Shown here in pieces: positions 4,374 to 7,053 of a stretch of 64,000 nucleotides of DNA. The stretch comes from Candidatus Omnitrophota bacterium. Its GTDB lineage: Bacteria; Hinthialibacterota; Hinthialibacteria; Hinthialibacterales; JAKPRU01. The translations under genes were made by a program, and so were the position numbers. The notes below the pieces were generated by a model, which made no database searches, was not told where the DNA came from, and saw only the letters and a program-made list of their open reading frames with translations. Where the stretch lies: assembly GCA_029570205.1 (NCBI GenBank), contig JAKQSI010000128.1, forward strand, positions 4,121 through 68,120. The letters are read 5' to 3'. Positions within the stretch are counted from its first letter, which is position 1. Each line of letters opens with the position of its first letter.

Positions 4374-4515
4374 GCACAGACACACGGACTGAAGGAAGAA
4401 TGTCTGGCGCAATCCCTTCGGTTTTCTGCATTGATAGAGGGGTGTTGTCATGATACATTCCAAGTAATGATTCAATCCGATGAATTCGACTCCTTTCGTG
4501 AACGGAGCGCTTTTG

Positions 4516-7053
4516 ATGAGACGATGGGTTTGGGTTCTTGTGTCACTGATTTGTTGCAGTGGGGTTTTCGCGGGTGATTCGTATATCTTTCATTTAAAAA
4601 ACGGTCAACGTCTTGTCGGCGAAATCGCGGCTGAAAATGATGCTTCCGTGACGATTGAAACACGGGATGGTCGTGTTACTGTCCGCAAGGAAGAAATTGA
4701 ATCCCGCACTCCCCATTTGGTTGACCGGGAGAAAATCGGGCAGGCCGAGCAATTCGTGGTGGAAAAACGGCATTTGGAGGCGATCCTGCTGTTTCGGGAT
4801 GCGTACAGCGCCGCCCAGGATCCCAAAATCAGAGAAGAGGGACAGCGGAGAATTGAGGAAGTGGCCGACCGGTGGGTCGAGCAGTCTTCCAGGCGTTCCG
4901 GGGCCGAATTGGACTGGTCGGATGCCGACAATCTGGTGAAGATTGAAGGATTGATCGAGTCTGCCGATGTGCTGGAACGGCTGAAAGCGGAGGCCCGGCG
5001 GATTCGTGAAGTGAGAGCCGTGTATCTCGATTCCGTCGCGGAGGGGTTTATGAAGGCGGGGAAATATGCGGAAGCGGCGGAGATATACAGGGATCTACAG
5101 AACCACGGATTTCCCCGCCCGTCCCAGCTGGCCAATGCCTATCTTCGGCAGGCAATTTCTTTAACCGGCCCAACCGACAGGGACCTTTCGAAAGCCTTGC
5201 GCCTGTTAGAGCAGGCGCAAGCGGCCGATCCGAATGTGGTCCTTGTCCATCTGTATCTGGCGCATGTTTATCTGGAATTGGGTGATCTCGATGCCGCGAT
5301 GGGGCAATTCCGTCTGGCGGTTCCTCACTATGCCGAATTTGCCGGGGCGGATAAGAACCTCTTTGACCGAATTTCCGCTCGTCTGGCCCGCGTCTCTCGA
5401 TTTCCTACGTTTGCCCCTATCCCCACGGTTTCTCCGGAGCGGATTGCCAATCCGCAGCGGACCACGAAGCAAAAGGTTCGATTCTGGTTCTGGGATGCGA
5501 AACGGGCCTATTATTCCGGGTCCTGGAAGGATTTTTTCAAGAAACACTGGCTTTACATGGCGGCTGTGATCGGAGCGGTTCTTGTTCTCTGGTATCTGCC
5601 CTGGCGCTATGTCCGGCACGATTTTTCCCGACGCACGATGATGGGGCCAAACTGGAGCACAATAGCGTTCTTCACGGGCATATTCGGTTTCCTGGCTTAC
5701 CTGGTCATGCGGACATTCCAGGAGATTCGTGTGCCCCGCTGCAAGCGTTGCGGATACAACCTGGCCAGAGCGAGCGACTATACGGATTACGATTACCATC
5801 ATTGCCCCAGCTGCAAGGCTCCCATCCGGCCTGTGTTCACCCTCAGCCAGGAAATCGTCGGTCGCGCACGGATGCTGGCAGCGATGGGTTCCGCTTCGTC
5901 CCTGGAAACCGGGTCCGAGGAAGAACTGTTCCAGATTCTTTGTCTTCATGCGTTCCGGTCCCGTGCGCAAGAGGTGGTGATGGAGCCGAACGGGAAGGAC
6001 CTGACTGTTTTTTTTGAGGTGGATGGGATTCGATACCAGGTTTTCCAGATTCCCCAGTCAACCTTGAAGTTCCTTCTTCCTATTGCCCGTAAAAAAGCGA
6101 ATATCGAAGCCTCCGCGCCGTTTCCCCAGAAAGGATATTTCATTTCCAGTCTCGGCGAGGCGGATGTGGAGATCCGCTTGAGTATTACGCCCGGCGATCT
6201 GGGAGAGACATTTCGAATGCGTCTGACAGACCGACGAGAGTCGTTGCCGAACCTGGCGCAAATCGGTTTGAATGATCGTCAGCAAACGATCATCAAGGAA
6301 GAATTGGCAAAGCCGTCAGGGATGATTGTCATTGCTGGGCCGCCAAAATCGGGCAAGACGACTCTGGCGTATGCCATGCTGGCCTATCTCAACGACGGGC
6401 GTCATTACATGGCCTCCATCGAAAAGAGCATTCAGGCGGAGGTTCCGGGGGTTACTCAGATTGAGGAAGGTCGGGGCGGGATGTATGGCAGACAGATCAT
6501 CGAAGCCGTTGTTCGCCAGAATGTGAATGTGCTGTTTGTCGATGAAATTCGGGATCGCGAGAGCGCAGAGTATTTGTTGGGGATTTCCTCCACGAATCGG
6601 CAAACGATTGTTTGCCTGGAGAGCGCCGATACGGTACATGCATTGGAGCGTTTTCTTAACAACGACCTTCCACCGGAAATGCTCGCCAGTAGTCTCAATT
6701 TGATAGTCGCTGTCCGATTGGTTCGAAAATTGTGTCCGGCGTGTAAGACCGAGGGCAAGATAAGGGCGAAGGACCTGGAGCGGCTTGGTCTGTCTCCCGA
6801 TGCTGTTGCCTCCGCGCGGGTGTATGTCCACACAGGTTGTGAGGAGTGTATGCGATCGGGGTACCGTGGCCGAACCGGTGTTTTCGAGGTCTTGTCCATT
6901 TCGGGCGATCTCAAACAGGCCATTGCCGCAAACAGACCCAAAGAAGAGATTCTTCGTATAGCGGCCTCGGCAAGGCCGGGTGTGTTGAAAAGGCATGTAT
7001 TGGAGAAGGTTCTTGCGGGTGTGACGGATTTCGACGCCATAGCCGGTTTCTGA
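4516..7053 (+). CDS. Membrane-anchored GspE/PilB-type ATPase with secreted TPR front end
   Basis: 845 aa from ATG 4516 (GGAG at 4504-4507; a further in-frame ATG at 4480 lacks a good site). Order seen: signal peptide or membrane anchor (1-19, ending FAGDS), a short SH3-like segment IFHLKNGQRLVGEI, TPR-like helices to about residue 290, two membrane segments near 341-363 and 380-403, a zinc ribbon CKRCGYN...CPSCKAP near 408-434, then a GspE N2-like region and the secretion ATPase core. Walker A is GPPKSGKTT (about 608-616), Walker B LFVDEIRDRESAEY, and a C-terminal four-cysteine site CPACK...CEECMRSGYRGRTGVFEVL. The ATPase half would be cytoplasmic and the TPR half periplasmic. Family members are normally soluble, so the fusion is unusual. 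No other pilus or secretion gene is nearby. Confidence 0.8.
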   Translation: MRRWVWVLVSLICCSGVFAGDSYIFHLKNGQRLVGEIAAENDASVTIETRDGRVTVRKEEIESRTPHLVDREKIGQAEQFVVEKRHLEAILLFRDAYSAAQDPKIREEGQRRIEEVADRWVEQSSRRSGAELDWSDADNLVKIEGLIESADVLERLKAEARRIREVRAVYLDSVAEGFMKAGKYAEAAEIYRDLQNHGFPRPSQLANAYLRQAISLTGPTDRDLSKALRLLEQAQAADPNVVLVHLYLAHVYLELGDLDAAMGQFRLAVPHYAEFAGADKNLFDRISARLARVSRFPTFAPIPTVSPERIANPQRTTKQKVRFWFWDAKRAYYSGSWKDFFKKHWLYMAAVIGAVLVLWYLPWRYVRHDFSRRTMMGPNWSTIAFFTGIFGFLAYLVMRTFQEIRVPRCKRCGYNLARASDYTDYDYHHCPSCKAPIRPVFTLSQEIVGRARMLAAMGSASSLETGSEEELFQILCLHAFRSRAQEVVMEPNGKDLTVFFEVDGIRYQVFQIPQSTLKFLLPIARKKANIEASAPFPQKGYFISSLGEADVEIRLSITPGDLGETFRMRLTDRRESLPNLAQIGLNDRQQTIIKEELAKPSGMIVIAGPPKSGKTTLAYAMLAYLNDGRHYMASIEKSIQAEVPGVTQIEEGRGGMYGRQIIEAVVRQNVNVLFVDEIRDRESAEYLLGISSTNRQTIVCLESADTVHALERFLNNDLPPEMLASSLNLIVAVRLVRKLCPACKTEGKIRAKDLERLGLSPDAVASARVYVHTGCEECMRSGYRGRTGVFEVLSISGDLKQAIAANRPKEEILRIAASARPGVLKRHVLEKVLAGVTDFDAIAGF

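Follow-up and report, generated by a model that had tools for sequence, protein, structure and literature searches.

A putative lineage-wide variant of the GspE/PilB motor ATPase that carries a predicted membrane anchor and exported arm in one chain, with an active site rebuilt in one genus of Hinthialibacterota

The gene analysed here lies in a 64,000-nucleotide stretch of DNA from a Candidatus Omnitrophota bacterium (assembly GCA_029570205.1; hereafter, the window) and, judging from its sequence, encodes a GspE/PilB motor variant that is new and lineage-wide: a membrane anchor and an exported arm belong to the same chain as the ATPase, and in the window's genus the active site has been remodelled. 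The motors of pili and of type II secretion are described as soluble proteins docked via partner proteins. At the level of primary structure, the architecture is fused, is conserved in two phyla (Hinthialibacterota and Sumerlaeota) and belongs to a single clade; the N1 domain has been lost, and the active site is altered but maintained. The reading that we consider the best one, with a probability of roughly 0.45, is that of a self-anchored type-IV-filament motor ATPase, whose likeliest cargo would be an orphan set of pseudopilins encoded together with a giant protein and which, in the window's genus, would hold its Mg ion on D676. The core of an earlier note on this DNA, that the gene, located outside any pilus operon, encodes a GspE/PilB-type ATPase fused to a membrane part and an exported arm, holds.

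The gene is a single open frame from 4516 to the stop at 7053. The ATG at 4516, the start adopted in the earlier note, is preceded by GGAG and is therefore the better one; the alternative in-frame ATG at 4480, 36 nt upstream, has no such site. The features, in window coordinates, are the following.

4516..7053, + strand: whole gene, 845 aa (signal peptide, SH3-like, TPR, TM, zinc ribbon, GspE/PilB-type ATPase)
4516..4572, + strand: signal peptide, residues 1-19 (MRRWVWVLVSLICCSGVFA, then GDS), a hydrophobic segment recognised by inspection of the sequence
4579..4713, + strand: SH3-like beta barrel, residues 22-66 (five strands in the AF2 model; weak NCBIfam Lepto_7_Nterm match at 21-73)
4726..5397, + strand: helical TPR arm, residues 71-294, predicted periplasmic (Pfam TPR_19; AF2 model; TPR structural neighbours)
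5548..5613, + strand: TM1, residues 345-366, single predicted span (dG -1.9; helix 337-372 in the AF2 model)
5650..5724, + strand: second helix, short and broken, residues 379-403, probably at the membrane surface (insertion energy, flanking charge, AF2 model)
5740..5814, + strand: zinc ribbon C409-C412-C430-C433, all four Cys invariant in the family
5908..6231, + strand: N2D of the ATPase, residues 465-572, with arginine fingers R554 and R569 kept and RASDIH and PQDG residues lost
6268..7041, + strand: C-terminal ATPase domain, residues 585-842 (Pfam T2SSE; structural match)
6337..6360, + strand: Walker A GPPKSGKT, residues 608-615
6418..6435, + strand: altered ASP box IEKSIQ, residues 635-640, with Q640 at the position of the Mg-binding Glu of PilB
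6529..6546, + strand: altered Walker B VLFVDE, residues 672-677, with D676 in place of the family Gly and the catalytic Glu, E677, kept
6592..6621, + strand: altered HIS box, residues 693-702, with R695 and E702 in place of His and T693 kept
6733..6849, + strand: tetra-cysteine zinc site C740, C743, C775, C778 (catalytic residue table)

The protein is a member of the T2SSE superfamily according to Pfam (PF00437; E 4e-56, 190.6 bits against a gathering cut-off of 24.9), and the ATPase part of the AF2 model aligns to GspE/PilB with a Z of about 28-29. It remains below the cut-offs of the NCBIfam equivalogs, with 225 bits against 630 for GspE and 220 against 676 for PilB (canonical relatives score 492-509 and 456-479, respectively). 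With the PilB/GspE extension ATPases (T2SSE, PF00437; TIGR02533, TIGR02538) it shares the N2D and CTD fold, Walker A, the catalytic Glu, both arginine fingers and the tetra-cysteine zinc site; it differs from them in lacking an N1/MshEN-type domain, in the SH3-TPR arm, span and zinc ribbon fused in front, in its location outside a pilus operon and, in the window's genus, in the changed ASP box, HIS box and Walker B Gly. No Pfam match to N1 (MshEN/T2SSE_N) was retrieved from the window protein or its relatives; this domain is not universal among T4F ATPases (PMC10191384). The TM, the short helix and the CxxC..CxxC zinc ribbon that distinguish the family stand directly before the T2SSE domain of the window protein, and this anchor replaces the N1 domain of GspE. 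In the GspE-GspL and PilB-PilM docking pairs a periplasm-reaching part likewise holds a cytosolic motor at the inner membrane, whereas in this family a single chain serves as both motor and anchor, and no known docking family among those searched matched the anchor part. A literature search for membrane-anchored or TPR-fused GspE/PilB proteins gave nothing on point; the protein in one candidate precedent (PMC12943098) is an ordinary MshEN GspE.

Residue roles and numbering were taken from a PilB structure paper (PMC5424180), fixing the numbering on the chain sequence (E395 is the Glu of GEIRD, and an offset of 20 makes E357 the last Glu of EDPxE), and the window protein and that of its congener G001 were tabulated against 26 other members of the family. 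All 26 members outside the window's genus carry the canonical catalytic residues, whereas nine catalytic or signature residues are altered within it. In N2D, RASDIH shows D to E and H to V, RxDG R to E, and PQDG D to K; in the ASP box the E is kept, the D is replaced by K and E357 by Q (H in G001); and Gly394, H413 and H420 (PilB numbering) have become D, R and E, respectively. R271 and R286 (PilB numbering), the Walker A Lys, E395, T411 and the four zinc Cys are unchanged. In the numbering of the window protein, K614, T615, E677, R554 and R569 (roles from PMC5424180) are in place, together with C740, C743, C775 and C778; the ASP-box glutamate (Q640; H in G001), the Walker B glycine (D676) and the HIS-box histidines (R695, E702) are not. 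The "complete Walker A/B/C-terminal zinc ATPase" of the earlier note is thus correct for Walker A, the catalytic Glu and the four-Cys zinc site, and incorrect for the ASP box, the HIS box, the Walker B glycine and the N2D signature.

Two readings of this altered site can be depicted. In the first, the window-genus protein would still hydrolyse ATP, which seems to us somewhat better than an even bet. Classical P-loop ATPases have an acidic residue in Walker B ("DE") at the position of D676, and we infer that this acid may compensate for the lost Mg-binding Glu of the ASP box. D676, in a classical Walker B, would then take over the Mg ion from the ASP-box Glu, and the motor would go on using ATP with a changed inter-subunit coupling, R695 and E702 replacing the two His. 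In the second, the protein would be, in this genus, a pseudo-ATPase, i.e., either a nucleotide-binding or structural scaffold without turnover that links the periplasmic TPR arm with a ring in the cytosol, or a sensor; in the sister lineages the motor would still work. We regard this as rather unlikely, since the Walker A Lys and Thr, the catalytic Glu, both Arg fingers and the zinc Cys are kept, the Walker B acid falls exactly at the position of classical P-loop ATPases and purifying selection is strong, even though the HIS box, the ASP-box Mg Glu and Asp and the N2D signature residues have all been replaced, the T2SSE score is 193 bits against 375-426 in relatives, and the branch leading to the ATPase domain of the window's genus is very long (about 5.5 changes per site). 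The dN/dS of the ATPase half between congeners is 0.03-0.11, similar to or below that of the flanking genes, which indicates that the domain is maintained and not decaying. The same values led us to reject a pseudogene, and a fully dead ATPase is not supported, the core residues being still there. For the family at large, a motor is likely, rather than a mere sensor.

As for the genomic context, the window contains no prepilin motif and the contig of the gene neither GspF nor a secretin, in agreement with the lack of pilin and secretin genes remarked on earlier; the pilin plus platform by which a type IV filament locus is recognised are not encoded with this ATPase, whose neighbours in the window include ROK kinase and polyprenyl synthetase genes. 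Elsewhere in the window genome there are four GspF and six secretin matches; platform and secretin were nowhere seen next to the ATPase. One contig of this genome (G000:C86) bears two secretin-domain matches about 1 kb apart (101357-102858) and a third at 64814-65380, and has no T2SSE or T2SSF match. In the closed 3,289,105-bp genome G025 (taken as Ca. Sumerlaea chitinivorans BY40), which also carries the fusion, the GspF genes at C1:1034889 and C1:1821717 have no listed GspE/PilB nearby and could be platforms for the orphan ATPase.

The search for co-occurring genes suggested in the earlier note did reveal partners: in four sister genomes the ATPase gene lies directly downstream, on the same strand, of genes for two secreted proteins, one SH3-TPR and the other TolB-like plus FGE. 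The pair (L112:8887-10970, L096:11426-13656) consists of a secreted SH3-like plus TPR protein followed by a secreted protein with TolB/DUF3280-like and FGE-sulfatase domains, and it is found in the window's taxonomic order only, at a location that changes from genus to genus. All nine genomes of the order have the TolB/FGE gene at full length; the five class relatives without the ATPase do not, and in them the FGE domain alone matched. The nine genomes represent one clade, and the co-occurrence of this gene with the ATPase therefore counts as a single event.

In the window genome (contig G000:C56), and likewise in G001, the pair is located 267 nt ahead of a same-strand pseudopilin cassette. 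This cassette (L112:2-8620) codes for three prepilin-motif proteins, of 215, 488 and 462 aa, and for a giant with a length of at least 1,674 aa, whose N-terminus is GspK-like by inspection, and has no ATPase or GspF beside it. In its three prepilin-motif proteins and GspK-like giant it resembles the GspH-I-J-K minor pseudopilins; its likeness to the Verru_Chthon cassette (TIGR02596, TIGR02599) is weak (27 and 33 bits against cut-offs of 256 and 70), and it is connected with the ATPase indirectly. Most of the sister family has a copy of the giant with 47-49% identity over about 1,050 residues, and weakly similar proteins occur across the class; the same cassette, without an ATPase or GspF of its own, occurs elsewhere in sister genomes, and the giant shares a contig with the TolB/FGE gene in G002. 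Motor and pseudopilin set are both orphans and both are linked to this gene pair, which suggests, via two hops, one machine, and the cassette with its giant would be the likeliest cargo in the window's order.

According to this scheme, six copies of the protein would form the usual hexamer, held under the membrane by six spans and zinc ribbons that would do the job of the GspL/PilM-type docking proteins; ATP-driven movements would be transmitted to a GspF-type platform, pushing pseudopilins out, while the TPR arms would grip the SH3-TPR and TolB-like/FGE proteins in the periplasm. That the motor serves the cassette is tentative, at odds below even, and the proposal as a whole, in which a self-anchored motor lineage drives a distinct pseudopilus-like machine tipped by a giant protein and one genus moved its Mg ligand from the ASP box back to the Walker B acid, is doubtful. 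The self-anchored motor reading has to face several observations: no platform or secretin lies next to the ATPase anywhere seen; the second of the two hops rests on one genus; the giant has weak relatives in class members that lack this ATPase; in Sumerlaeota the TolB/FGE partner is absent (FGE-domain matches only, with one partial exception) and no pilin lies near the ATPase gene; and the periplasmic arm varies, a proline-rich stretch or extra membrane helices replacing TPR in some members. Between the two roles proposed in the earlier note, driving another machine is favoured by the partners found in sister genomes, which flank the pseudopilin cassette in the window's genus; transducing periplasmic signals has no direct support.

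The protein might otherwise serve the ordinary type IV pilus or T2SS of the same cell as an alternative or accessory extension motor, with the GspF platform in common. Several ordinary GspE/PilB and GspF genes exist in every genome checked, BY40 has GspF genes without a listed GspE beside them, and type IV pili have been reported for Sumerlaeota (PMC8092238), all of which fit such a role; it appears unlikely, however, for an ATPase that was never found in a pilus operon, that is lineage-specific and whose partners in the window's order suggest another role.

The self-anchored motor reading depends on the membrane topology. Insertion energies were calculated for 28 members with the Hessa/von Heijne position-specific scale: TM1 was below 0 in 26 of them (median -1.6) and the second helix in five (median +0.8; window copy -0.76). 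Positive charge flanks the second helix on both sides, and both structure models make it short and broken. The AF2 model, built on a five-row alignment (mean pLDDT 68.6), gives the order five-stranded barrel, helical repeats, long helix 337-372, broken helix 379-403 and two ATPase domains. One span would leave the SH3-TPR arm periplasmic and the ATPase cytosolic; a cleaved signal peptide and two spans would imply an ATPase on the periplasmic side. The topology evidence fits one span, with the second helix probably lying in the plane of the membrane surface, and a cytosolic ATPase behind one span is very likely; the predicted arrangement is a PilB/GspE fold, one span, a periplasmic arm and a cytosolic ATPase. 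The two spans of the earlier note are disfavoured: as to whether they are membrane helices at all, TM1 was upheld and the second was not. A protein crossing the membrane twice, with a periplasmic ATPase or else a cytosolic N-terminal arm, is highly improbable, the slightly favourable energy of the window copy being set against a weak second helix in 23 of the 28 members, its positive flanks, its short, broken form in both models and the lack of ATP outside. The zinc ribbon proposed earlier is confirmed as a CxxC...CxxC motif at 409-433, invariant in the family; the Pfam double zinc ribbon match is weak.

The exported parts described in the earlier note were recovered as well, the signal peptide by inspection, the SH3-like part as a five-stranded barrel (residues about 23-66 of the AF2 model) and the TPR part through a Pfam TPR_19 match and helical repeats at 71-294; the VIA-align list of structural neighbours is dominated by the ATPase domain, with few TPR rows. 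The arm is variable across the family, with a proline-rich stretch in family f55 and extra membrane helices in L054. At L102:9356-11416 (G069), several hydrophobic helices replace the exported TPR arm, and the TM-zinc-ribbon-ATPase part is kept.

The profile search for this domain order that had been suggested was carried out with the TM-zinc-ribbon block alone. It retrieved the block from 9/9 genomes of the window's order, from 0/5 genomes of other families in the class and from 31/39 Sumerlaeota genomes (BY40's class), including 19 of 20 good assemblies, and from no other convincing group in 386 sampled genomes; four weak matches in other genomes (E 4.5e-8 to 6.8e-5) fall in frames of 376-541 aa, too short for the fusion. 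A profile from a narrower alignment found four named relatives, among them SURF_12, which belongs to the OLB16 lineage (PMC10066038), i.e., to Hinthialibacterota (PMC11382960). Relatives in sister families are 26-29% identical over nearly the whole length; the sister family has the same domain order in six genomes out of six, five matching almost end to end and G007 being cut off by a contig end. In a quick tree, the ATPase domains of the family fall on one side of a branch, with the ordinary ATPases on the other (SH-aLRT 98). The fusion is almost certainly real, and two separate genes joined through a sequencing or assembly error, which the earlier note had named as fatal to its reading, can be ruled out because independent assemblies of more than 30 species, the closed BY40 genome included, contain the same fusion.

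The motor with its built-in dock is retained by almost all well-assembled Sumerlaeota genomes and by every sampled member of one Hinthialibacterota order, and such a family would offer a one-chain system for studying the coupling between motor and envelope. The rebuilt active site of the window's genus, in turn, allows a direct test of why, in this class of ATPases, an ASP-box Glu and a HIS box stand in for the usual Walker B acid; the moved Mg ligand, if true, would be a natural experiment on the inter-subunit coupling of hydrolysis in these enzymes.
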